NCBI GenBank assembly: GCA_017642425.1
Contig: JAGCPB010000059.1
Location: forward strand, 1 to 64,000
Direction of reading: 5' to 3'
Length of the DNA stretch: 64,000 bases
DNA from: Bacteroidaceae bacterium
Lineage (GTDB): Bacteria; Bacteroidota; Bacteroidia; Bacteroidales; Bacteroidaceae
Below are positions 52,658-64,000 of this stretch, piece by piece. The number at the start of each line of letters is the position of its first letter. The stretch's first letter is position 1. Under the pieces are notes generated by a model. That model searched no databases and had not been told where the DNA came from. It worked only from the letters and a program-made list of their open reading frames with translations. The position numbers and the translations under genes were made by a program.

Positions 52658-53947
52658 ATGAACAGAATTGTACTCATAGGTAATGGCTTCGATTTAGCTC
52701 ATGATCTTAAAACCAGTTATAAAGATTTTATAGAATGGTATTGGGAGCAAAGAGTCTTATCTTTTATTGATAACAAAACGATGGTGTCGTCAGACCCACT
52801 ATTTACAATCAGGAGCATAACCAACACCTTTAATCAGATTGCCTATTCTGAATCTGTTGATGACTTGAATAGGACAGAGAGAATCAACCTGTTAGTAAAA
52901 ATAGAAACAGACACTAGAAAATACAAAGTATCATATTCAGATTTTTACCGGGGAATAAAGGACAGTATTGAACAAAAAGGATGGGTTGACATTGAGTACG
53001 AATATTACAAACAACTCAAAAAGTATTGTTTGATCCCATACCAGTCTATACATTTTGATAAAGATGTGCCCAAAGAACTGAAATCATTAAATGACCAACT
53101 CTATTATTTGAAAATAAAACTAATCGAATATTTGAGCAAGACATGTAATGATATTTCCCGGATGAACGGCGAAATTAAAGATCTGTTATATGAGCCACTG
53201 ACTCCACGTGACATAGCTGTCGAGGGTATTTCGACTATAGCGGACATGTTGAAGAATATATTGTTTGATGATGCTCAAATCGAATATGGATTAGATAATA
53301 ATTTTAAACGTTATGGTTATATCGCACCTAATTCAGAAGATCAGGAATATTATCGCAAGTTATATCTTAAACGTAAGTTCTTTTCTTCCGACAAACCTTG
53401 TCCTTTCCTCTTTCCCGAGACCGTCTTATTGTTGAATTTCAATTACACTAATACAGTCGACAAATACCGTGAAGAAGGAGTAGCACAGATTATCAATATA
53501 CACGGCACTCTAAATAATCCCAATAGTATCATCTTTGGATATGGAGATGAGCTAGACGAGAATTACAAAGAAATCAAAGAATTAGAATACGAGGAATCCA
53601 GAAGGAATATCAAATCCATAAAATATTTAGAATCCGACAATTACAGAAAGGTTCTTTCTTATGTAGAATCAGCTCCTTATCAGATATACATTATGGGGCA
53701 CTCATGTGGCAATTCTGACCGTACTTTAATTAACACTCTATTTGAGCATAAAAACTGCATATCAATAAAACCCTTTTATAACCAAAAGGCGGATGGCACG
53801 GACAATTTCTTTGAGTTGGCTCAGAACATAAATCGCAACTTCATAAACATGAAATATATCAGGGATAGAGTGGTAAACAAAACATATTGCAAACCACTGC
53901 CTCAAAACATTACCAAACAACAAAATGAAGATATAAGAGACAACTAA
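52658..53947 (+). CDS. abiH: AbiH-family abortive infection protein
   Basis: A 429-residue protein with the AbiH signature at its start, RIVLIGNGFDLAHDLKTSY, and the later motifs LLNFNYTNTV, INIHGTLNNPNSIIFGYGDE and IYIMGHSCGNSDRTLINTLF. AbiH proteins protect against phage by abortive infection through a poorly known mechanism. Codon use and AT content change sharply from the gene before it, marking the start of the island. It has no visible promoter of its own and likely uses that of the gene 7 nt upstream. Confidence 0.9.
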   Translation: MNRIVLIGNGFDLAHDLKTSYKDFIEWYWEQRVLSFIDNKTMVSSDPLFTIRSITNTFNQIAYSESVDDLNRTERINLLVKIETDTRKYKVSYSDFYRGIKDSIEQKGWVDIEYEYYKQLKKYCLIPYQSIHFDKDVPKELKSLNDQLYYLKIKLIEYLSKTCNDISRMNGEIKDLLYEPLTPRDIAVEGISTIADMLKNILFDDAQIEYGLDNNFKRYGYIAPNSEDQEYYRKLYLKRKFFSSDKPCPFLFPETVLLLNFNYTNTVDKYREEGVAQIINIHGTLNNPNSIIFGYGDELDENYKEIKELEYEESRRNIKSIKYLESDNYRKVLSYVESAPYQIYIMGHSCGNSDRTLINTLFEHKNCISIKPFYNQKADGTDNFFELAQNINRNFINMKYIRDRVVNKTYCKPLPQNITKQQNEDIRDN

Positions 53948-54119: not shown

Positions 54120-55367
54120 ATGGTGGCGGAAACTAAGAAAAATACTGTGATTGACTTGTTCGCTGGTTGTGGGGGCCTATCGCTTGGCTTGTATCAGGCT
54201 GGATGGGAAGGCCTTTTTGCCATTGAAAAAAATCCTTTTGCCTTTGAAACACTCAAGCACAATCTGATAGACAACAAGAAACACTTCAATTGGCCGGAAT
54301 GGCTTCCAATGACAGCACATGAAATCAATGAAGTTCTGGACAAATACCCAGAACAGCTCAAAGCACTTCAAGGGCAAGTCGACTTGGTGGCAGGCGGCCC
54401 ACCATGTCAAGGCTTTTCTATGGCAGGAAAGCGTCAAGAAAATGACACGCGCAATCAATTAGTATTCTCTTACATCAGATTCATTGAGTTTGTCAAGCCC
54501 AAGATGATTCTTTTTGAGAACGTCAAAGGTTTCACATACGCATTTGACAAAGGTAAGACAGCCTCTGAGGTAGAGCCATATTCCCACAAAGTGATATCCA
54601 AACTAGAAGAATTAGGTTATGATGTCAAAGCACAAGTGATTGACTTCTCACAATATGGAGTGCCACAGCGCCGCAAACGTTTTATTCTTGTTGGAATACT
54701 TAAAGAACTTGGCTCTCCCAATCAGTTTGAGGAGTTGCTAAAAGCAAACAAAGAAGCATTCCTAAACGAAAAAGGCTTGAGTACGACAACCACATTGAAA
54801 GAAGCAATATCGGACTTGTTGCGTTCAAATGGCCAAGAGCCCACCCCTGACAGGAAGGGCTTTGATTCCGGTGTGTATGGACAAGGAGAATTAACCAATT
54901 ATGAAATCCTAATGCGCGGTAATTACCCTAACCATCATTCTGTTCCGGATAGCCACAGTTTTGCCCATCATACCCCCGATAAAGTTAGTTGCTTCAAAAA
55001 ACTGCTTTCTGAATATCCGGAGAGAGGGAAGCGGATTGACGGCAAGAATCGCGACAAATGGGAAATAAAACAACGAGGCATTACCGTTTTGGACCCTAAC
55101 GCCGTTTCCCCTACTATTACAGGGCAACCAGACGATTACCTTCATTATTCTGAGCCAAGAATCATGACCGTACGCGAATGCGCACGTATACAGTCATTTC
55201 CCGATTGGTTTGAGATAAAGAAAAAATACACCACAGGTGGACAGATGCGCAAGCTTGAAGTACCACGTTATTCGCAAATAGGCAACGCCATACCACCCTT
55301 ATTTGCCGAACAGGCAGGCATTGTACTTAAACAGATGTTAGAGCATGGTAACAAAGGACAATCTTAA
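54120..55367 (+). CDS. DNA C5-cytosine methyltransferase 1
   Basis: A 415-residue enzyme with all main C5-methyltransferase motifs: I DLFAGCGGLSLG, IV GGPPCQGFSMAGKR with catalytic Cys96, VI FENVKGF, VIII QRRKRFILVG, and X QIGNAIPPLFA near the end. It transfers methyl from S-adenosylmethionine to cytosine and should protect host DNA from the nuclease of the same operon. Two methyltransferases with a McrB-like motor and a LlaJI nuclease match the LlaJI arrangement, in which each enzyme methylates one strand of an asymmetric site. It overlaps the GHKL gene by 23 nt. Specificity unknown. Confidence 0.95.
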   Translation: MVAETKKNTVIDLFAGCGGLSLGLYQAGWEGLFAIEKNPFAFETLKHNLIDNKKHFNWPEWLPMTAHEINEVLDKYPEQLKALQGQVDLVAGGPPCQGFSMAGKRQENDTRNQLVFSYIRFIEFVKPKMILFENVKGFTYAFDKGKTASEVEPYSHKVISKLEELGYDVKAQVIDFSQYGVPQRRKRFILVGILKELGSPNQFEELLKANKEAFLNEKGLSTTTTLKEAISDLLRSNGQEPTPDRKGFDSGVYGQGELTNYEILMRGNYPNHHSVPDSHSFAHHTPDKVSCFKKLLSEYPERGKRIDGKNRDKWEIKQRGITVLDPNAVSPTITGQPDDYLHYSEPRIMTVRECARIQSFPDWFEIKKKYTTGGQMRKLEVPRYSQIGNAIPPLFAEQAGIVLKQMLEHGNKGQS

Positions 55368-57708
55368 ATTCCGTGTCAGCGCGGAACTAAAAAATATACT
55401 TGGACGGGATTTGATTACAAGTCCTGATATTGCCATTTTGGAACTAGTCAAGAACTCATACGATGCCCATGCCTCAAAAGTTGAGATCACCTTTGATGAA
55501 GACTATCTGGAAATAGCTGACAACGGCAAAGGTATGTCCAAAGATGACTTGATAAACAAGTGGCTATTTGTGGCTTACTCTGCCAAAAGCGATGGAACGG
55601 AAGATGTCACCTACCGTGATAAAATTACACGTCATTATGCTGGAGCAAAAGGTATCGGGAGATTGTCTTGCGACCGTTTAGCACGCTATTTGGTTTTAAC
55701 GACACGTAGCGAAGCTGAGAACGACACAGAGGTGCTTAATGTGGATTGGCAAGTATTTGAGGAAAACAAGAAAACGGAATTTGATACGATAGATATTCCA
55801 CATGAGACAACAGAAATAATACCATCCTTTCCTAACGCATCTAAAACCGGAACAAGCCTCCAATTTAGAGAGCTTCATGACATCTGGACACGTGAAGATA
55901 TTAAGCGTCTACGAAAATCCCTGGAAAAAATGATCAATCCTTTTTCAGGAACAGACGATGATTTCCAGATTGAAATAAAAGCGCCCAAAATGCAGGCTGA
56001 GGATGAATCCATATCATCAACTCATGACAGAGTCAATGGCGTTATAGAGAACTCTATTGCCGATGTACTTAAGCTAAAAACAACGCAAATTGAAAGTAGG
56101 ATTGAAGGAGACACCATTCACACTACATTGACAGACCGTGGAGTCGTCATGTATGAGATAGAAGAACCCAATAATCAATTCATGCATTTGGAATCATCTT
56201 CGATAAGTCTTTTTTACCTTAATCGAGCAGCAAAATATTCTTTTACAGCACGAATGGGCGTTCAACCTATTAGTTATGGCAATGTGTTCCTCTTCAGAAA
56301 TGGATTCCGCATTTTACCATATGGTGAATGGAACGATGATAGCTGGGGGCTGAATTACCGTCAGCAACAAGGCTATAACCGATTCCTAGGTACTCGAGAT
56401 TTGTTCGGAAGAGTTGACGTTGAAACTGACAACACAGATTTAATCAAGGAGGTTTCTAGCCGTGACGGTGGTTTAATAAAAACAGACGCATCTCAACAAC
56501 TGATGGAATATTTCACGCTCATTCATCGACGGTTGGAGCGTTATGTAGTGGGAGTGTTATGGGGTGAAGGTTTTATAAGAAAAGAATATTTTGTAAATCA
56601 AGCATCAGCACTAGAAGCACGCAAAAAACTAGAGTACGACAAAGACTCCGACACAGCAGATCACTTGTATGACAACATCGGTAGCAAAATTGATTTTCTT
56701 CAATTGATCAAGACTCTTGCAAACGACAAATCAATTAATGTAATCCGATACAATGAGGAATTGGCAGATATAGTCTCCAATCCATCTGAAGCTGAAGTGA
56801 TTCAAGCGCAGATGCTTGATGACGTTCGTAAATTGGCAGAAAAGACCAATGATGCTTTCTTGCTCAATAAAATCCAAGAGTTCGAAATGCACATGGATGA
56901 ACTTCGCAAACAGAAAGAGGAAGCAGAGCGGAAAGTCGAGGAAGAACGTCGGAAAACAGAGGCTGCACGAAATAAAGCATTAGAAGAAGAGGAGAAAAGA
57001 GAAAAGGCAGAACACGAACGTGATGTGCAGATTCAAAAAAACAGATATCTTTCTGCTACCAGAAACACTACGAAAGAGGTTCAGGACCTAATTCACGTAA
57101 TTCTTATTTCTTCTACAAGTTCTATCAGCTTAATTGATACGGCCAAATGCCAATTATCTGATAAAGATTTGAATGGTTTGAGAAGTACTCTTGATAAATT
57201 TGATTATCATATCACCAAGATAAACAAGCTTTCTAAACTTATTACGAAAGCTGACCTAGCTTTATTGTCTGAGTCTGGATTAATAGATATACAAAGCTAC
57301 GTACAAGAATATCTTACAAACTTCACAGATTCGTTCAAAATACAAAGCCATTCAGCTATTACAGAGCCACTTGAGAAAAAGATCTCCATATTAGATTTGT
57401 CGATCATATTAGACAATCTGATTAGTAATTCAAAAAAAGCGAACGCGACAGAATTAAGGTTGGACTACTCAAGAAAAGGCCGTACATATATTGTTGATTT
57501 TACAGATAATGGAGATGGTGTTGACACATCTCTTTTTACTCCAGAAACCATTTTTGAGGAGGGAATAACAAATCGCAGAGGTGGTTCTGGAATAGGTCTA
57601 AGCACAATAAAAGACCGAATGCGAAAAGAACTCAATGGTGATATTGTATTTTTAGGAAATGGACTGCATTTTGAAACTGGCGCTACATTCCGTTTATACT
57701 TTGAATAG
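55345..57708 (+). CDS. Dual GHKL ATPase: MORC/MutL-like N terminus, histidine-kinase-like C terminus
   Basis: A 787-residue cytosolic protein with two ATP-binding GHKL domains. The first has the N-box LELVKNSYDAHA (Glu33, Asn37), G1 DNGKGM (Asp59) and G2 HYAGAKGIGRLS, the form seen in MutL/Hsp90/MORC-like proteins. A middle region to about 500 has no recognised family. A long Glu/Lys/Arg coiled coil follows at about 510-575, then a helical region with a possible phospho-accepting His near 583 (VQDLIHVI). The second ATPase domain has LDNLISNSKKA, DNGDGVD and RRGGSGIGLS, as in histidine kinases. No transmembrane helix. A receiver-domain gene follows 4 nt later, so the pair may form a soluble two-component relay. 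MORC-like ATPases are known in bacterial restriction operons. Confidence 0.88.
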   Translation: MVTKDNLKFRVSAELKNILGRDLITSPDIAILELVKNSYDAHASKVEITFDEDYLEIADNGKGMSKDDLINKWLFVAYSAKSDGTEDVTYRDKITRHYAGAKGIGRLSCDRLARYLVLTTRSEAENDTEVLNVDWQVFEENKKTEFDTIDIPHETTEIIPSFPNASKTGTSLQFRELHDIWTREDIKRLRKSLEKMINPFSGTDDDFQIEIKAPKMQAEDESISSTHDRVNGVIENSIADVLKLKTTQIESRIEGDTIHTTLTDRGVVMYEIEEPNNQFMHLESSSISLFYLNRAAKYSFTARMGVQPISYGNVFLFRNGFRILPYGEWNDDSWGLNYRQQQGYNRFLGTRDLFGRVDVETDNTDLIKEVSSRDGGLIKTDASQQLMEYFTLIHRRLERYVVGVLWGEGFIRKEYFVNQASALEARKKLEYDKDSDTADHLYDNIGSKIDFLQLIKTLANDKSINVIRYNEELADIVSNPSEAEVIQAQMLDDVRKLAEKTNDAFLLNKIQEFEMHMDELRKQKEEAERKVEEERRKTEAARNKALEEEEKREKAEHERDVQIQKNRYLSATRNTTKEVQDLIHVILISSTSSISLIDTAKCQLSDKDLNGLRSTLDKFDYHITKINKLSKLITKADLALLSESGLIDIQSYVQEYLTNFTDSFKIQSHSAITEPLEKKISILDLSIILDNLISNSKKANATELRLDYSRKGRTYIVDFTDNGDGVDTSLFTPETIFEEGITNRRGGSGIGLSTIKDRMRKELNGDIVFLGNGLHFETGATFRLYFE

Positions 57709-57712
57709 AGAC

Positions 57713-58402
57713 ATGAAAAGACAAAGGTGTATTTTACTAGTTGACGACAAGGATCAAGGTGATGTTATTGACAGCATAAAGCTGCAATTACGCGAAGACT
57801 TTGATTTAGACTTTATTGCGATTCGGACATCTGCTTCGGAACTGAAAAAAGATAATGCAGAAGATCTGGACATAAACAAACTTAGAGTATTAATTGAAGA
57901 AAAGATACTGAACAAACATATTGATATCGCCCTGACAGATTTTGACTTGAATAGCGATGATGTAAACGGTATGAATGTTGTTCAAATATTACATGGAATC
58001 CGACCAAACCTTAAATATCTGATTTATTCAGGGAACTGGGACAAAGTCATAAGAACAGTCATAGGAAAAGACTATAAACGAGCATCAATAGATGAGCTTG
58101 TTGATGGCATAAACAACCTTATACATGCAAACATTATTAACTGCATTGGAAGGACTGATTATAAGGCAGATCTTATCAAATACTTAAAAGAGGATAAGAG
58201 CGATTCTATTGAACATCGTTTATCAATATTACTCAGGGCAAATGGCGACATGAAATTTGATTCATGCTGTCCAGAGCTTAAGGGTAAATCATTTATAGAA
58301 ATTGCCAATATGATTGACAACCATTCTGACGCCCGGTCCGAGGAATGGATAGAGGCAATATTGGCTCAAACTATAGCTTATCTTGTAAAAGTGAACATAT
58401 GA
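57713..58402 (+). CDS. Receiver-domain protein (response-regulator-like)
   Basis: A 229-residue protein that starts MKRQRCILLVDDKDQ, giving the acidic pair Asp11-Asp12. The likely phospho-acceptor is in IALTDFDLNSDDVNGMNVVQ (Asp76 or Asp78), a Ser follows in YLIYSGNWD, and a Lys in GKDYKRASIDEL. These are the receiver residues, though the loop after the acceptor is longer than usual. The C-terminal ~90 residues form no known DNA-binding domain (FDSCCPELKGKSFIEIANMI). The output is therefore probably protein-protein, for example on the CHAT-like protein whose gene overlaps its stop by 4 nt. An upstream Met of the frame (57659) overlaps the GHKL gene and is not favoured. Confidence 0.75.
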   Translation: MKRQRCILLVDDKDQGDVIDSIKLQLREDFDLDFIAIRTSASELKKDNAEDLDINKLRVLIEEKILNKHIDIALTDFDLNSDDVNGMNVVQILHGIRPNLKYLIYSGNWDKVIRTVIGKDYKRASIDELVDGINNLIHANIINCIGRTDYKADLIKYLKEDKSDSIEHRLSILLRANGDMKFDSCCPELKGKSFIEIANMIDNHSDARSEEWIEAILAQTIAYLVKVNI

Positions 58403-59031
58403 GCAAAGCGGTTTGTATTTATCCGGAAGATATAACAACGGCCTTTCTTAGACCGTTATGTAATCATATATGTTCTACGTTCAACGCTGTCGAAGTGGGT
58501 TATGATACTTCTATTGATGATGATCCTCTTGAGATAATCCATAATGCTGTCAGGAACGCTAAGACTGTTTTTTTTCTTGGACATGGCATGAGCACATGTC
58601 TATATGCTAGTGTATTAGACAATGTGGAATTATTTAACAAGGATAATTATTCATTATTGGAAGGAAAAAGATTGTTCTTATTGGCTTGTAATTCAGATCA
58701 ATTTATAAAAAACTATGATTTTGAGAATTCTATTGGTTTTGGGTTCTTGCCTACTAGTTTGGATGACGTTAGACAAAAAAGATTGTTTCACAACATTTTG
58801 GTCGAAACACTAGAAAAGAAAGATATTGAGTTTTTCAATGAAGCTTTAGTGAATGCTATTGCAAATACTTTATCAGATAATACGATTTCAGACCCCCATC
58901 TATTTGTGGAACGTTTAAGATTTGCCATAAGTGAAGAAATTGTTCAATGTCTTTTGAAAAAAGAGACGTCCAATTACCGGACTATTGCGGATGAGTTGTA
59001 TTATGTATTTAAAGACATGATTGTTTGCTGA
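58399..59031 (+). CDS. Small caspase/CHAT-like putative protease
   Basis: A 210-residue protein. A strand ending in His, AKTVFFLGHGMS (His62), is followed 35 residues later by a strand ending in Cys, KRLFLLACNSDQF (Cys97). This matches the catalytic His-Gly and Ala-Cys pattern of clan CD peptidases of the CHAT/caspase type, and spacing is in the usual range. The rest is helical. It has no signal peptide and no attached repeat or membrane domain, so it may be a free effector or regulatory protease. Its ATG overlaps the receiver stop by 4 nt and it ends 2 nt before methyltransferase 2. The family call rests on two motifs only; a proteolytic role is inferred. Confidence 0.6.
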   Translation: MSKAVCIYPEDITTAFLRPLCNHICSTFNAVEVGYDTSIDDDPLEIIHNAVRNAKTVFFLGHGMSTCLYASVLDNVELFNKDNYSLLEGKRLFLLACNSDQFIKNYDFENSIGFGFLPTSLDDVRQKRLFHNILVETLEKKDIEFFNEALVNAIANTLSDNTISDPHLFVERLRFAISEEIVQCLLKKETSNYRTIADELYYVFKDMIVC

Positions 59032-59033
59032 TT

Positions 59034-60284
59034 ATGCTCAAAAAGAAATATACATTTATAGACTTGTTCGCTGGATGCGGAGGCCTATCCGAGGGCTTTC
59101 TGCAAACAGGAAGATATAAAGCTCTTGCTCATGTTGAATGGGAAAAGCCCATGGTTGATACCCTTAGAAAGCGCTTGGTTTCAAGATGGGATGAGACCGA
59201 AGAAGAAGCAATGAAGCGAGTCGTTCTTTTTGATATCCAGAAAACGAAAGAGCTTATAGATGGTCAATGGTCTAATGATTCAATTAAAGATTATGGCTCA
59301 TATAACTCCGAGACTGTAATGACTAAAGGTCTTAAGGGGATCGCAGGAAGAGAGCATGTTGATTTGATTATTGGAGGCCCACCTTGCCAAGCATATTCAA
59401 TACAAGGAAGAGCTACGGACAAGAATTCCATGAACAATGATTACAGAAATTATTTGTTTGAAAGTTTCTGTAAGGTTGTTGATGCTTTTAAGCCTGAAAT
59501 ATTTGTGTTTGAAAATGTAGCTGGGCTACTTAGCGCAAAACCAGGTGGGATACCTGTCCGAAAAAGGATTTTTGAAGCTTTCTCAAAAATAGGATATACC
59601 ATACTAAATCCTGAAGAGTTACCGAAGGCTTTATATGATGCTTCTATTTTCAGCGTACCTCAACATCGCCCCCGTGTAATCATTCTTGGCATAAGAAACG
59701 ATTCAGATTTCAAGCTTGCTGAATTGTACGAATCCATTGAGAAAGAAAGTGCTCCCTACAATAAACTTACAGTTAGAGATGCCATTGGTAATCTCCCTCC
59801 ATTGTATCCATTAGCACATCAGATTAAGGAAGGACGTATTGTCAGGTCTCACAATTTGAATTCAGATCCAAGTATAACCCAGCATGAGGCCCGGAATCAT
59901 GCTCCTCGTGAAATGGCCATATTTAAGGAATGGGTTGACAATAATATGAATCACATTAGTCATCAGGAAATGATTGACTACTATTTTGCAAAGACCGGCC
60001 ATAAAACTTTATATCAGAAATATAAGAGTCTTGAATGGGATAAGCCTTCTCATACTGTTGTCGCCCATCTTAATAAGGATGGATACATGTTTATTCATCC
60101 GGATTCTAAACAACAAAGAAGTATTACTATAAGAGAGGCTGCGTGCCTTATGACGTTCCCCAAAGATTTTCAATTTATAGGGAGTAATTCAATTTGCTAT
60201 AAGATGATTGGAAATGCAGTTCCTGTTAACTTTGCAAATGCGATAGCAAAGGGATTGTACAAAGCATTAGATAAAAAGAAATGA
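59034..60284 (+). CDS. DNA C5-cytosine methyltransferase 2
   Basis: A 416-residue enzyme with complete C5 motifs: I DLFAGCGGLSEGF, IV GGPPCQAYSIQGRA with catalytic Cys118, VI FENVAGLL, VIII PQHRPRVIILG, X MIGNAVPVNFA. It differs throughout from methyltransferase 1, with its own target-recognition region, consistent with the two enzymes recognising different strands of one asymmetric site. It lies 2 nt after the CHAT-like gene and overlaps the next gene by 4 nt (ATGA). Confidence 0.95.
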   Translation: MLKKKYTFIDLFAGCGGLSEGFLQTGRYKALAHVEWEKPMVDTLRKRLVSRWDETEEEAMKRVVLFDIQKTKELIDGQWSNDSIKDYGSYNSETVMTKGLKGIAGREHVDLIIGGPPCQAYSIQGRATDKNSMNNDYRNYLFESFCKVVDAFKPEIFVFENVAGLLSAKPGGIPVRKRIFEAFSKIGYTILNPEELPKALYDASIFSVPQHRPRVIILGIRNDSDFKLAELYESIEKESAPYNKLTVRDAIGNLPPLYPLAHQIKEGRIVRSHNLNSDPSITQHEARNHAPREMAIFKEWVDNNMNHISHQEMIDYYFAKTGHKTLYQKYKSLEWDKPSHTVVAHLNKDGYMFIHPDSKQQRSITIREAACLMTFPKDFQFIGSNSICYKMIGNAVPVNFANAIAKGLYKALDKKK

Positions 60285-60994
60285 ATGTATTAGTAGCGTG
60301 TGAAGAAAGTCAGGCTGTATGTATTGCCTTTAGAAAGAGAGGGCACAATGCATTTAGTTGCGATATACTTGAAAGTAGCGGAGGGCACCCAGAGTGGCAT
60401 TTTAAACAAGACGTTCTTCAAGTAATTCCCAACCATGGCGGCATACTTGAAAATGGCTCAGAATATTATTTGCCAGAAGGTGAAAAATGGGATTTGATGA
60501 TCGCCCACCCACCTTGCACATACCTTTCTGTTAGTGGTGCTCGCTGGCTTTATCATCCTGACGATGCCGACTTGCCTATTGAACAAAGACGCGAACACCC
60601 TCATCATCTTGGAAGAAGAGCGTTGAAACAGGAAGCTATAGAGTTCTTCTTGAAGTTTACCAGAACCGATATTGAGCATTGGGCAATTGAGAATCCCGTA
60701 GGATGCATGAATACAGAGTATAGGAAGCCGGATCAAATCGTTCAACCATTTTGGTTTGGAGATCAAGCCTCAAAAAAAACCTGCTTGTGGCTCCACAACT
60801 TACCTTTACTCAAACCTACAAATATGGTCTCTGAAGGCCCAAGAGTTGTGCTATCTAGTGGACGTTCACTCCCCAAATGGTATTCCGACTCATTCAACAC
60901 CAAAATAACGACTGAAGAGAGACGTAAATTAAGAAGTAAAACTTTCCCAGGTTTCGCAGAAGCATTAGCCGAGCAATGGGGCAAAATTGAATAA
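60281..60994 (+). CDS. Third, small cytosine methyltransferase-like protein
   Basis: A 237-residue protein resembling phage-type cytosine methyltransferase-like proteins. It has VACEESQAVCIAFRKRGHNA as a degenerate cofactor motif, then a PPC motif (IAHPPCTYLSVSGARW, Cys79), an EN motif (WAIENPVG) and a C-terminal KTFPGFAEALAEQWG in place of motif X. It has no room for a standard target-recognition domain. It could be a third methyltransferase, a modulator of the others or a cofactor-binding remnant. It overlaps methyltransferase 2 by 4 nt. Confidence 0.7.
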   Translation: MNVLVACEESQAVCIAFRKRGHNAFSCDILESSGGHPEWHFKQDVLQVIPNHGGILENGSEYYLPEGEKWDLMIAHPPCTYLSVSGARWLYHPDDADLPIEQRREHPHHLGRRALKQEAIEFFLKFTRTDIEHWAIENPVGCMNTEYRKPDQIVQPFWFGDQASKKTCLWLHNLPLLKPTNMVSEGPRVVLSSGRSLPKWYSDSFNTKITTEERRKLRSKTFPGFAEALAEQWGKIE

Positions 60995-60997
60995 CAT

Positions 60998-62836
60998 ATG
61001 GCAGCGAATCTTAAAGTTCAAAGTTTCAGAGCAAACGATTTATCTAAGGATACCGGCAAGCAATTTGAGCTAGGTAGAGCGTGGTGCGTTGATTTTTTTC
61101 AAATTGATGATTCAATTAGAGAGTATACAATTGACTTGATCTTTAAGCCACTCGCTCCAAATCACCTTGATTTTCAAGATAAAATTATTAAGCTCAAATT
61201 GGCCGAGGTTACCCGCAGAGGTGATAGGAAAGCCTATGCCAACGGAGACATGGGGCAATCTCAGATTAAAGAGTTTTTTATCTATAAGTTAGGCCTTAAT
61301 GATAGCAACCTTGAAGATTATTTTGCTATCTATAAAACACCATTTAACGAGTATTTCTTGTACTACGTCCCCAAACTGTTGTATAGAAATTTTATTCAGC
61401 TGTTCAAGAGTACAGTACAAGAGGTTTCTGTTGAAAGAGCAAATAGAAATATTACACTGGATAATCAAATAACATTACAGCGTATCTTCTACGGTGCACC
61501 AGGAACCGGCAAATCTCATGTGATAAAGGAAAATACAAAGGGTAAAGAGGTAATACGCACAACATTTCACCCCGACAGCGACTATTCTACGTTTGTTGGA
61601 GCATATAAGCCAACGGCCATTGAAGTTCCCATGAGGGATGTGACAGGAAAGATCATTGTTGAGAATGGCAAACAGGTGACTGAAAAAAAGATTGTCTATG
61701 AATTCGTTGAACAAGCTTTCCTCCAAGCATATATTAAGGCTTGGAATTTGTATGCAGAGACAGAAGAGGGTAAAACAGCAGAAGAGGTGTATCTGGTTAT
61801 TGAAGAGATAAATCGTGGTAATTGCGCACAAATATTTGGTGATTTGTTCCAATTGCTCGACCGTGGAGATGACGGTTTTTCTGAATATCCAATAGTCGCT
61901 GACAAAGATTTGCAGAAACAGCTGGAAAAGTCTTTTGCAGATATAGCATCGCTTAACGTCCCTGCCATCTGTGATATGAGTGCAGATGTAGTAGCAGAAA
62001 AGATAAAAAAAGGTGAGATACTACTTTTGCCCAGCAACCTCCTGATCTGGGCTACTATGAATACGAGCGATCAAAGCCTATTTCCTATCGATTCCGCATT
62101 CAAACGTCGTTGGGATTGGCAGTATGTACCAATTGCCAATGGTAACAAGAAATGGAAGATCGTAGTCAATAAAAATGAATACGATTGGTGGGAATTCTTG
62201 GAAAAGATCAATGCTTTAATAGGTGAAAAGACAAGCTCGGAAGACAAAAAGATGGGATACTACTTCTGCAAGGCAACAAACGACGTTATTGACGCGAAGA
62301 TGTTTGTTGGCAAGGTTATCTTTTATCTATGGAATGACGTATTCAAAGATTACGATTTTGAAGGTGATGCTTTTAACGATGATGACGGCAGTAAACTAAT
62401 CTTCGGCAAGTTCTATACAACTACTAACGGCACAGTTTCTGTTGTTGAAGAGAAAGTTGAATTGTTTCTTTCTAATCTAGGCATTGCGGCAAATCCTAAG
62501 ATTGAAGCTGAAACACCTACGGACGAAGAAGCAAATGGAGATTTCAAGGTGAAATTAGATGAAATAACATTTAACGAACGTACCGCAATTGAAACATTTG
62601 CAAAAGTTGTAGAATCCATCGGAGTAGAGCGTGTTGCAGGACTAAATCTTAAAGTCAGTCAACACCCATTATTATCCAAGGATAAATTGGATCCTGAAAC
62701 TCCGGGAGGTTATGGCCTCAGCATGAAGCAAATCGGAGATTATTGGATGGTATGCAAGTTTTCAAATGATCAGAAGGTGAGATTCCTTCAACAAATGAAG
62801 GACCAATTAGATTTGGATCTTGAAGTAGTGGAATAA
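60998..62836 (+). CDS. McrB-like AAA+ ATPase of a LlaJI-type restriction system
   Basis: A 612-residue motor protein. An N-terminal ~160-residue domain of unknown family, probably for DNA recognition, precedes the AAA+ core: Walker A FYGAPGTGKSH at about 164-174, Walker B with the McrB-type VIEEINRGNCAQIFGDLFQL near 268, the MNTSDQSLFPIDSAFKRR motif near 353-370. The MNTxD motif is typical of the McrB GTPase family. It should form a ring and drive the nuclease encoded next, 4 nt later. A C-terminal ~150-residue domain follows. Compared with LlaJI the order methyltransferases-motor-nuclease is kept. Confidence 0.9.
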   Translation: MAANLKVQSFRANDLSKDTGKQFELGRAWCVDFFQIDDSIREYTIDLIFKPLAPNHLDFQDKIIKLKLAEVTRRGDRKAYANGDMGQSQIKEFFIYKLGLNDSNLEDYFAIYKTPFNEYFLYYVPKLLYRNFIQLFKSTVQEVSVERANRNITLDNQITLQRIFYGAPGTGKSHVIKENTKGKEVIRTTFHPDSDYSTFVGAYKPTAIEVPMRDVTGKIIVENGKQVTEKKIVYEFVEQAFLQAYIKAWNLYAETEEGKTAEEVYLVIEEINRGNCAQIFGDLFQLLDRGDDGFSEYPIVADKDLQKQLEKSFADIASLNVPAICDMSADVVAEKIKKGEILLLPSNLLIWATMNTSDQSLFPIDSAFKRRWDWQYVPIANGNKKWKIVVNKNEYDWWEFLEKINALIGEKTSSEDKKMGYYFCKATNDVIDAKMFVGKVIFYLWNDVFKDYDFEGDAFNDDDGSKLIFGKFYTTTNGTVSVVEEKVELFLSNLGIAANPKIEAETPTDEEANGDFKVKLDEITFNERTAIETFAKVVESIGVERVAGLNLKVSQHPLLSKDKLDPETPGGYGLSMKQIGDYWMVCKFSNDQKVRFLQQMKDQLDLDLEVVE

Positions 62837-62840
62837 AAGG

Positions 62841-64000
62841 ATGAGAATCCTTATAGAAGAATATCAATACGCATACGAGGATGTGAGCCAGATGGCTCCA
62901 AGCCTTGAAATCCAGCATGACGCAGAAGGTAAAGTTAGCCTGAGCCGTGTTGGCTATTTCTTCTGCCCGGAGGTGGATGATTGCGTATTTATTCTTCCTA
63001 AGGTGTTATTGGAAGGAGATTTTGGACAGGAACTTGTGTTCGGGCATATTCCGCCACGCAACTTGATTGTACTTGACAAATGTAAAGAGTTGACTCCTGT
63101 AGAACGAGATTTCATCTACAACCTTTCTGTTTGGATATATAGGGCTATCTGTGTGTTTAAGGACCATGAGTATGATCGCTTTGGTGGGAAGAAGGCAGCA
63201 CCATCAATCGTGCTTTATAAGCAAATGCCTGTGGCCGGACATTCAAGGAAAAGGAAAGCAAACACATTCTTGGATATTCTGTTGGCTCTGCAACAATGGA
63301 ACAAGGATAATCAGCAGTTTGTAATGTTTATCGTCAAGAATTTGCATGCTGGTTATAACAAGATTAATTGGACGAGAACGATTTCACATTCACAGGCCAT
63401 TATACAAAATGAACTTTCGTCACAGTCTGTCGTTTATTTGAATCCCGTAAACAGAAAACGTAAGATTAATTTTGATGAAGAGTTGCTGGTGATTTATTAC
63501 AGCATTCTCTATTATATCAATGATACTTATGGACTGCCCGTTATTATGAACGTGAACTTTCCTCTGATAAAAGGGGAAAAGTTTAAAACCTATATAAAAG
63601 GCTTTGGCGTCAGACGACTTCGACAGATAAAGTATAAGTATTTCTCGGATAAGGCATTGGAACTCTGGAATCTGTGCTTTGATTTCTTTGACCATCCATC
63701 CCATGTGATGATGAATGTTGACAGAAGAGAGTATTTGATGGTCAAGAACTTCCATATAGTGTTTGAGGCTATTATTGATGAATTGATTTCTGGAGACCAG
63801 AAAATACCTAAGGAACTGATAGACCAGGAAGATGGCAAGGTGGTTGACCACATGTACCAATATCAGGAACTAGTCAATGACGATAGTAGTGAGGACATAT
63901 ATTATATTGGAGATTCTAAGTATTACAAGCGCGGTCACAATTTGCCTAAAGAATCCATATATAAGCAGTTTACATACGCGCGGAATGTTGTCCAATGGAA
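62841..64000 (+). CDS. LlaJI-family restriction endonuclease (incomplete at window end)
   Basis: An ATG 4 nt after the McrB-like stop opens a frame with no stop through the end of the window, giving 386 visible residues. The part near the end, DIYYIGDSKYYKRGHNLPKE followed by SIYKQFTYARNVVQW, is the core of LlaJI-type nucleases (McrC-like partner, PD-(D/E)XK fold). Asp358 and Lys360 would be the D and K of the catalytic D-x-K. The N-terminal part has the beta-barrel and helical character of McrC-like subunits. It needs the McrB-like motor for activity in known systems. It is missed by ORF calling that requires a stop codon. Confidence 0.85.
   Translation, partial: MRILIEEYQYAYEDVSQMAPSLEIQHDAEGKVSLSRVGYFFCPEVDDCVFILPKVLLEGDFGQELVFGHIPPRNLIVLDKCKELTPVERDFIYNLSVWIYRAICVFKDHEYDRFGGKKAAPSIVLYKQMPVAGHSRKRKANTFLDILLALQQWNKDNQQFVMFIVKNLHAGYNKINWTRTISHSQAIIQNELSSQSVVYLNPVNRKRKINFDEELLVIYYSILYYINDTYGLPVIMNVNFPLIKGEKFKTYIKGFGVRRLRQIKYKYFSDKALELWNLCFDFFDHPSHVMMNVDRREYLMVKNFHIVFEAIIDELISGDQKIPKELIDQEDGKVVDHMYQYQELVNDDSSEDIYYIGDSKYYKRGHNLPKESIYKQFTYARNVVQW

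Follow-up and report, generated by a model that had tools for sequence, protein, structure and literature searches.

A Bacteroidaceae operon with a LlaJI-type restriction cassette and a candidate methylation-linked phosphorelay cassette placed end to end

Gene content of the operon

The window, a stretch of 64,000 nucleotides of Bacteroidaceae bacterium contig JAGCPB010000059.1, closes with eight genes (54120-64000) that, as an earlier note on this DNA had described, all lie head to tail on the plus strand; neighbours either overlap or are separated by no more than 4 nt. A ninth gene, encoding Vsr (PF03852, E 5e-32), follows in the contig 5 nt past R2 and outside the 64-kb window. AbiH lies upstream of the operon, and promoter- and terminator-like sites were not above the level of shuffled sequence. 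The features are as follows.

54120..55367, plus strand: M1, C5-cytosine DNA methyltransferase that opens cassette 1 (PF00145, E 2.3e-62)
55345..57708, plus strand: HK, dual GHKL protein (HATPase_c_3 plus HATPase_c in one protein)
55345..57022, plus strand: ATPase half of HK, paraMORC-like GHKL, residues 1 to ~559 (HATPase_c_3, E 7.9e-22)
57023..57708, plus strand: kinase half of HK, with coiled-coil end, dimerisation helix carrying H584, and HATPase_c (684-786)
57713..58402, plus strand: RR, short receiver, 229 aa (D11, phospho-acceptor D76; tail without HEPN motif)
58399..59031, plus strand: CHAT-like protein of 210 aa, putative cysteine protease (dyad H62, C97)
59025..60284, plus strand: M2, C5-cytosine DNA methyltransferase that opens the LlaJI-type cassette (PF00145, E 3.1e-58)
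60281..60994, plus strand: sMT, small phage-type DNA methyltransferase (phrog_757; PPC motif)
60998..62836, plus strand: R1, McrB-like AAA+ subunit, LlaJI type (R1.LlaJI similarity; AAA_5)
62841..64000 (window edge; ends at 65189 in the contig), plus strand: R2, LlaJI-type nuclease subunit (family profile against LlaJI R2)

The receiver start was set at 57713 by alignment to relatives, within an ORF that runs from 57659, and the CHAT-like gene was taken from an ORF open from 58345. The operon consists of two cassettes end to end and is not one LlaJI operon with a built-in trio. Cassette 1 is made up of M1, the dual GHKL protein, the predicted receiver and the CHAT-like putative cysteine protease; cassette 2, of predicted LlaJI type, of M2, the phage-type methyltransferase sMT, R1, R2 and Vsr. 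Pfam backs the identities previously given to M1 and M2 (DNA_methylase), to both domains of the dual GHKL ATPase and to R1 (AAA_5). The window RR, CHAT-like protein, sMT and R2 searched alone matched no relevant Pfam family; at the level of family profiles, the receiver and the LlaJI-type R2 are supported, and the CHAT-like protein more weakly so.

The assignment of R1 and R2 to a LlaJI-type unit stands. R1 resembles R1.LlaJI of pNP40 (34.7% over 314 aa, E 6e-36) and the PADLOC REase_II model (E 7.7e-41), while the likeness of R2 to LlaJI R2 shows up only between profiles (97.3%, E 2.5e-11); blastp with R2 itself and a search with PF09563 were both negative, and the Pfam LlaJI model had zero matches in the 4 genomes searched. 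Residues D331 and D358-S359-K360 of R2, a PD-(D/E)xK-like site, are invariant in 13/13 rows. A LlaJI-type system is expected to have two C5-methyltransferases that serve an asymmetric site. M2 is a C5 enzyme, and sMT matches a phage DNA methyltransferase family (E 3.9e-62) and 141 of 50,697 phage records (E to 1e-20), with its PPC at residues 77-79. As far as the available part of its description goes (PMC1459862; locus L195), LlaJI of pNP40 likewise unites methyltransferases, a McrB-like R1 and a nuclease R2 in one operon, but has no kinase, receiver or protease gene, has an R2 of 414 aa against 782 aa in our contig, and differs in its second methyltransferase, which is small and phage-type in the window operon. 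The related units L198-L200 gave one methyltransferase match each, and the M2-sMT-R1-R2 order recurs in L041, there behind a long receiver.

The kinase module and its two candidate kinds of output

Relatives of cassette 1 were sampled as 80 named loci chosen by kinase similarity. M1, which carries the motifs PPCQ, QRRKR and GNAI, lies directly 5' of the kinase gene in 61/81 systems and in 22/22 of the CHAT type; a full adjoining M1 is missing in 19/57 HEPN systems, in two of which (L104, L117) the contig end cuts M1. Conserved in 61/81 systems, the M1-HK-receiver order is therefore not due to chance, and we found it in contigs titled Bacteroidota, Proteobacteria, Spirochaetales, Verrucomicrobia and Methanimicrococcus.

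Both ATPase sites of the dual GHKL protein are intact, as are the phospho-histidine and aspartate sites of the module. In the ATPase half, E33, N37, D59, G61, G63, G103 and G105 are kept in 81/81 systems; this half matches the BbrUII/HgiDII model at E 1.6e-27, but with 96 of 550 bits, and MutL models more weakly. In the kinase half, H584, N695, G749 and G751 are kept in 81/81 and D721, G723 and G747 in 80, and a profile search matches PDB histidine kinases (best E 1e-12). The ATPase half is presumed to be the sensor. A related GHKL domain is required for defence in VcSduA, according to the portion of that report available to us (PMC12137116).

Two receiver types make up the 79 systems with a called effector, a count that leaves out L081 and L098 (receivers of 141 and 137 aa): a short receiver with a CHAT-like partner (22/79) and a long receiver with a C-terminal HEPN-like RNxxAH motif (57/79). 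Besides the window and L023, the CHAT-type set of 23 contains 21 of the 80 named loci. Its short receivers keep D11 and D76 in 23/23, D12 in 18 and S106 in 22, and their profile matches PDB receivers (E 5e-4) and the long receivers (E 9e-13), which upholds the earlier receiver call for a protein that, searched alone, has no Pfam receiver match. The long receivers keep R251 and H256 in 57/57 and N252 in 53. Their assignment as putative HEPN-like RNases rests on the RNxxAH motif, on an alignment to the HEPN profile that scores 26.9 (shuffled maximum 16.7, 0/200) across just 22 columns at the motif, and on weak HEPN_Swt1 Pfam matches (8/57, best E 0.0012). The HEPN_Swt1 profile kept 8 of 10 rows (L185 and L192 dropped), and for rows open on both strands the strand with the RxxxxH-type motif was chosen, a choice biased towards a match.

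The CHAT-like protein is plausibly a cysteine protease and is presumed to be the effector. G61, H62, G63, C97 and S99 are conserved in 21/21 rows, down to about 20% identity, and hhalign against Pfam-CHAT rows (L154, with an internal stop, left out of 30) scored 25.4 over 99 columns with both dyad residues aligned, where shuffled profiles reached 18.1 at most (0/99); profile-profile E values were 0.007-0.016 (0.0073 in the run beating 99/99 shuffles). The His-Cys dyad and the CHAT alignment make the earlier protease call plausible, though it gained no significant Pfam match to a family of the clan: Pfam CHAT does not match the family, Peptidase_C25 matches 4/21 members below significance (best E 0.028), and the C25 profile comparison scored 26.2 against the shuffles' 25.4, its best stretch off the dyad. 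A plasmid search for homologues gave no match, and a DUF6670 match of one member (E 0.0021) was taken as chance. The top PDB profile matches, to haem-binding FetB (E 0.0077), a designed protein (E 0.033) and cobalt chelatase (E 0.41), would together with the missing family match suit a protein of another or inactive fold, a receiver partner or antitoxin rather than a protease; with the dyad invariant and aligned to CHAT, we hold this to be unlikely, if the most serious of the alternatives considered here.

Exchange within the kinase gene

Gene order, homologies, invariant catalytic residues and the exchange of cassettes come directly out of the analysis. Across 60 pooled systems (38 HEPN, 22 CHAT; 2000 permutations), receiver distances correlate with those of the kinase half (r 0.618, 0/2000 permutations) and ATPase-half distances with those of M1 (r 0.281, 2/2000), while the two halves of the same protein do not correlate (r -0.002; 0.008 without the window), a comparison that the selection of loci by kinase similarity can bias. 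The subsets weaken this picture of coupling: within the 38 HEPN systems the receiver correlates with the ATPase half (0.435) no less than with the kinase half (0.414), and within the 22 CHAT systems M1 correlates with the kinase half (0.41) and the receiver (0.45) but not with the ATPase half (0.16). The sharp pooled contrast therefore largely reflects the CHAT/HEPN divide. Mapped on the kinase-half tree, effector type changes once (support 89, not starred), as against 17 times on the ATPase-half tree, at least 8 of these forced by starred branches (shuffled mean 19.6).

At the DNA level, homology ends inside the kinase gene in 7/7 pairs, all picked for mismatched halves and, sharing members, not independent. 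In 5 pairs homology stops 25-40 residues ahead of the phospho-histidine, in the other 2 at 64 and 133 residues ahead of it. The window and L040 share 87% DNA identity that stops at 57023, the start of the exchangeable stretch, and L064 and L071 have homologous flanks around a different kinase half and effector, homology resuming just behind the effector. In the same-effector pairs L056/L048 and L055/L068, homology continues through the kinase gene. These patterns suggest that the kinase gene acts as a hinge, at which recombination a short way before the phospho-histidine codon would re-pair a sensor half with a kinase-receiver-effector set.

Restriction neighbours, related systems and a proposed mechanism

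The earlier note had read the kinase, receiver and CHAT-like protein as a built-in arm of a LlaJI operon. This fails: LlaJI genes rarely adjoin the trio, lying downstream on the same strand in 2/23 CHAT-type systems (the window and L046; 5 of 21 CHAT loci have less than 3 kb past the kinase, so that some LlaJI neighbours may be missed), and M1 belongs with the trio. In a third CHAT-type locus, L077, they lie on the opposite strand. Chance insertion into LlaJI is likewise rejected, M1-HK-RR being conserved without LlaJI and cassette 1 occurring elsewhere mostly with no LlaJI genes beside it. Nor is the insertion random, since R1 and R2 occur together in 10/80 kinase loci, in 9 of these as same-strand downstream genes. 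In these lineages the kinase module is genuinely associated with LlaJI genes.

That the trio serves LlaJI as a fail-safe arm, sensing failed restriction and then triggering the protease, would fit the single head-to-tail operon, the 9/80 kinase loci with same-strand R1 and R2 against R2 in 4/296 genomes of the phylum sample (R2 cut-off E to 1e-15, kinase E to 1e-20; samples not matched), and the concentration of the association in contigs with ruminant-type titles. We nevertheless consider it unlikely, given the low count among CHAT-type systems, the kinase-free LlaJI units on pNP40, on a Pedobacter plasmid and in G057, G281 and G202, and the other restriction enzymes that relatives carry behind the kinase module (HNH_2 + BpuJI-like in L044, NgoFVII-like in L042, DUF2357/PDDEXK_7 in L045). 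Three of the 4 genomes with R2 are without the kinase, and 8/9 loci with same-strand downstream R1 and R2 have the long HEPN-like receiver, not the CHAT pair.

Less probable still is that kinase and receiver control the restriction genes, in expression or in activity, without driving a killer, even if two-component pairs are usually transcriptional regulators. A sensing two-component system associated with restriction-modification was indeed proposed in 2021, in the part of that paper available to us (PMC8011034). Against a regulatory role stand the absence of a DNA-binding domain from the Pfam families listed (25 of 41 for long receivers, all 18 for short), the RNase-type motif with R and H invariant in the long receivers, and the 27/59 typed M1 loci (21 CHAT, 38 HEPN) with no same-strand gene within 150 nt of the effector; in 5 further of the 59 the contig ends after the effector. 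Independent defence-island neighbours without joint mechanism, to which AbiH upstream, Vsr, the phage-type methyltransferase and the clustering of defence genes would point, are highly improbable in view of the 4-nt overlap that is the commonest HK-RR spacing, the gene order kept in contigs of several phyla and the correlated kinase-half and receiver distances.

We therefore lean, by a modest degree, towards two defence cassettes in one operon, cassette 1 a probable self-contained methylation-linked alarm and cassette 2 a restriction system of LlaJI type. More tentatively, cassette 1 may represent an immune class built on a paraMORC-like ATPase that reads the DNA mark of its own methyltransferase and drives, through a His-Asp phosphorelay, interchangeable CHAT-like or HEPN killers shuffled at the hinge, restriction being a neighbour and not part of the core.

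Among known systems, Detocs phage defence also combines a cytoplasmic kinase, a receiver and an effector gated by phosphorelay, as proposed for cassette 1, but has a TPR sensor and a receiver-linked nucleotide-cleaving effector and is not known to include a methyltransferase. Kinase-receiver pairs beside C5-methyltransferases and restriction-modification genes were published in 2021. In the accessible sections of that work (PMC8011034), the HEF_HK / Response_reg_2 elements have the same soluble HATPase_c_3 + HATPase_c kinase adjoining a receiver protein and likewise lie near C5-methyltransferases, HNH_2 and Vsr in several phyla, with no receiver output domain or hinge reported; the terms HEPN, CHAT, caspase, peptidase, RNase and LlaJI were all absent in a search of the full text. 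Unlike that pair, the window proteins match neither PF19191 nor PF19192, the latter being weakly matched in 3/57 long receivers (best E 0.0023). MORC and paraMORC proteins in restriction-modification operons (PMC2292703, as excerpted) share the N-terminal GHKL ATPase near cytosine methylase and Vsr genes, whereas in the window the ATPase is joined to a histidine kinase that has a receiver of its own. The HEPN fusions of paraMORCs in an extract of PMC3710099 place Ymh-family domains on the ATPase rather than on a receiver. Type I-B CoCoNuT also ties a receiver domain to a McrB/McrC-like unit with proposed cell death; its receiver sits on CnuA with a pyrin/CARD-like domain, and the portion of PMC11090510 at hand mentions no kinase of its own or C5-methyltransferase and has no CHAT or HEPN-receiver output. 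In an excerpt of PMC13092281, a figure legend names HATPase and REC (receiver) for predicted systems containing domains that still await validation in defence; these two may be a pair of the present kind. A CHAT output, a HEPN output or a hinge for such kinase-receiver systems was not found in the literature searched, and all three appear to be new.

In the mechanism we propose, M1 would mark host DNA and the ATPase half of the kinase would serve to clamp or sense DNA, responding when that DNA is foreign or lacks the mark. The conserved sites suggest that the kinase half autophosphorylates at H584 and passes the phosphate to D76 of the receiver, which, once charged, would release or activate the effector, a CHAT-like cysteine protease in the window and a receiver-fused HEPN-like RNase domain in most relatives. 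The signal sensed, the direction of signalling, the protease and RNase activities and the anti-phage effect are what we infer here from sequence; the infected cell would probably stop growing or die, a second line beside the direct DNA cutting expected of LlaJI-type cassette 2.

Two-component signalling is known mainly for sensing the environment, with transcription as its end point. Here, such a relay appears to couple a protease or an RNase to a methylation mark on DNA. The kinase-receiver pairs described in 2021 near restriction-modification genes, with no output domain in the part of that description available, would gain two candidate outputs, each with its catalytic residues named, and the putative hinge supplies natural pairs, such as L064 and L071, that make the division between sensor and effector directly testable.

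Two cassettes in one operon

The eight plus-strand genes described in the earlier note, which begin at 54,120 and run up to the edge of the window, stand as reported, with overlaps or gaps of at most 4 nt. The contig extends to 66,492 bases, of which the window covers the first 64,000; since the contig contains the whole of the nuclease gene R2, the last of the window (782 aa), with a Vsr gene 5 nt further on, the operon comprises nine genes.

Window 52658-53947: AbiH (PF14253, E 1.5e-27), directly upstream of M1
Window 54120 to edge, plus strand: M1, dual GHKL ATPase/histidine kinase, receiver, CHAT-like protein, M2, small methyltransferase (sMT), McrB-like R1, R2
Window 60281-60994, within these eight: sMT
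Contig 65195-65629 (L002:5196-5630), beyond the window: Vsr mismatch endonuclease, ninth operon gene, 5 nt after R2

Both M1 and M2 carry PPCQ motifs, and each is a C5-methyltransferase. AbiH-like open reading frames also occur upstream of the module in the relative L040 (81%) and behind the CHAT-like gene in L047 (62%).

We scanned one genome per species across 84,980 species for the kinase; at least 569 stretches were confirmed and the best 80 used, among which the nearest relatives of the locus are contigs titled Bacteroidales or Prevotellaceae. In 61 of 81 systems (the window plus these best 80 loci) M1 immediately precedes the kinase gene; among the 20 others, two (L104 and L117) have M1 cut by the contig end. 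Seventeen pairs of kinase and long, HEPN-type receiver, mostly on contigs with proteobacterial titles, lack an M1 of this family immediately before them (L078, L080, L086, L087, L090, L093-L095, L097, L099-L103, L107-L109); another methyltransferase may serve them, or none.

LlaJI-type R1 and R2 occur together in 10 of the best 80 loci: downstream on the kinase strand in nine (L040, L041, L046, L050, L051, L052, L082, L084, L092) and on the opposite strand in L077, with single weak R1 or R2 matches in L042, L045 and L088. Only L046 among the nine has the CHAT pair. The single LlaJI operon with a built-in trio proposed earlier gives way to two cassettes. The second is a LlaJI-type restriction system in its own right. 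R1 matches R1.LlaJI of pNP40, and R2 matches R2.LlaJI at profile level only. L041 has the same M2-sMT-R1-R2 order behind a long receiver. In a 296-genome sample of the phylum, the kinase occurs in 17 genomes and the CHAT-like gene in three, each time adjoining the kinase, while R2 occurs in four, three of them without the kinase. The sMT belongs to the phage-type family phrog_757 (matched by 141 of 50,697 phage records). A phage-type small methyltransferase has joined a host LlaJI-type operon; its best phage record, at 64% identity, comes from human faecal samples.

Other genes found behind the receiver encode HNH_2 (L044, L057, L069), BpuJI-like (L044), NgoFVII-like (L042) and DUF2357/PDDEXK_7 (L045) proteins. 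The restriction enzymes of L042, L044 and L045 have methyltransferase-like neighbours, as if the kinase module were a preferred site for restriction-modification cassettes. No same-strand gene follows the effector within 150 nt in 27 of the 59 typed loci with M1 among the best 80.

Two candidate outputs

Downstream of the kinase, 21 of the best 80 loci encode a short receiver of about 230 aa, each with a CHAT-like gene behind it (partial in L048 and L073, cut by contig ends), 57 a long receiver of about 300 aa, and two neither type. Short and long receivers are homologous by profile comparison (E 9e-13). The window receiver alone has no receiver match in Pfam; its family profile matches PDB receivers (E 5e-4), and D11 and D76 are kept in 23 of 23 aligned sequences. 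The long form begins with a receiver half, which Pfam Response_reg matches in 42 of 57 (E ≤0.1), and its second half carries an RNxxAH motif, with R and H in all 57 and N in 53. Weak Pfam matches are to HEPN_Swt1 (8 of 57), Abi_2 (3) and three other HEPN or Abi families (1 each). Against HEPN_Swt1 rows the long-receiver profile scores 26.9 (shuffled maximum 16.7; 0/200), with the match centred on the motif and none from its receiver half or from the short receiver's tail. We read the long form as a predicted receiver-HEPN RNase fusion.

The CHAT-like protein has no CHAT match in Pfam; GHG and a Cys are kept in 21 of 21 aligned rows. Its profile scores 25.4 against Pfam-CHAT rows (E 0.0073; shuffled maximum 18.1, 0/99), in an alignment of 99 columns where His and Cys both line up, and 26.2 against C25 rows (shuffled maximum 25.4, 0/99), where the best stretch is C-terminal and leaves the dyad outside. 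CHAT and C25 rows resemble each other less (E 0.12) than either set resembles the CHAT-like query (E 0.016 and 0.0089). Classification as CHAT-like is probable, not proven. Other contigs of the window's genome (G000) hold one Pfam CHAT and two Peptidase_C25 matches (G000:C41:48362-49354, G000:C53:60653-61786, G000:C86:17683-18783).

An exchange point within the kinase gene

The 787-aa kinase protein combines an N-terminal HATPase_c_3 half with a C-terminal histidine kinase half. All seven checked ATPase-half residues and the phospho-acceptor H584 are kept in 81 of 81 aligned systems (window plus best 80), and the other positions checked in the kinase half in at least 80. For the 60 M1-containing systems compared, distances of the two halves of the same protein are uncorrelated (r -0.002), while the kinase half tracks the receiver (r 0.618, 0/2000 permutations) and the ATPase half tracks M1 weakly (r 0.281, 2/2000). 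Within the 22 CHAT-type systems, M1 tracks the kinase half (0.41) and receiver (0.45), compared with 0.16 for the ATPase half; within the 38 HEPN-type systems, the receiver correlates about equally with the ATPase half (0.435) and kinase half (0.414). With the correlations blurred inside each sub-set, it is from one effector type to the other that exchange shows most clearly, and the distances do not establish a simple coupling of M1 to the sensor.

In quick trees, a single change of effector label suffices for the kinase half (support 89), compared with 17 changes for the ATPase half, at least 8 of these on starred branches (shuffled mean 19.6). Among 79 systems, effectors differ in 37 of 41 pairs with like ATPase but unlike kinase halves, and in 0 of 23 with the reverse.

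The window and L040 are 87% identical from 52,221 through AbiH and M1 until 57,023, inside the kinase gene and 25 residues ahead of H584; beyond it, matches are short or weak (R1, 66% over 595 bases) up to R2, where identity reaches 93% (62,841 to 65,556). Six further pairs whose ATPase halves are alike and kinase halves unlike, selected for disagreeing halves and sharing some members, also lose homology inside the gene, at 27, 29, 30, 40, 64 and 133 residues ahead of the histidine, while homology continues through it in two same-effector pairs. In L064/L071, homology picks up again just behind the effector, a clean swap of kinase half, receiver and effector.

A possible relay and its precedents

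Since the catalytic sites are intact and the parts co-inherited, we infer a relay in which the ATPase half would sense, H584 would hand phosphate to D76 of the receiver, and the effector would then be released. Knowledge of the families suggests that M1 may act as a self-marker and the ATPase half as a DNA reader. The anti-phage action of VcSduA is reported to require a related GHKL domain (PMC12137116), and kinase-receiver pairs of like architecture beside C5-methyltransferases and restriction-modification genes have already been published (PMC8011034). The CHAT-like partner, the HEPN output and the hinge, as we call the exchange point, were not found in the literature searched, which covers few subscription papers; as far as it shows, these three would be new here. 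With the kinase-receiver pair itself known, the module is thus best seen as a variant on a known architecture.
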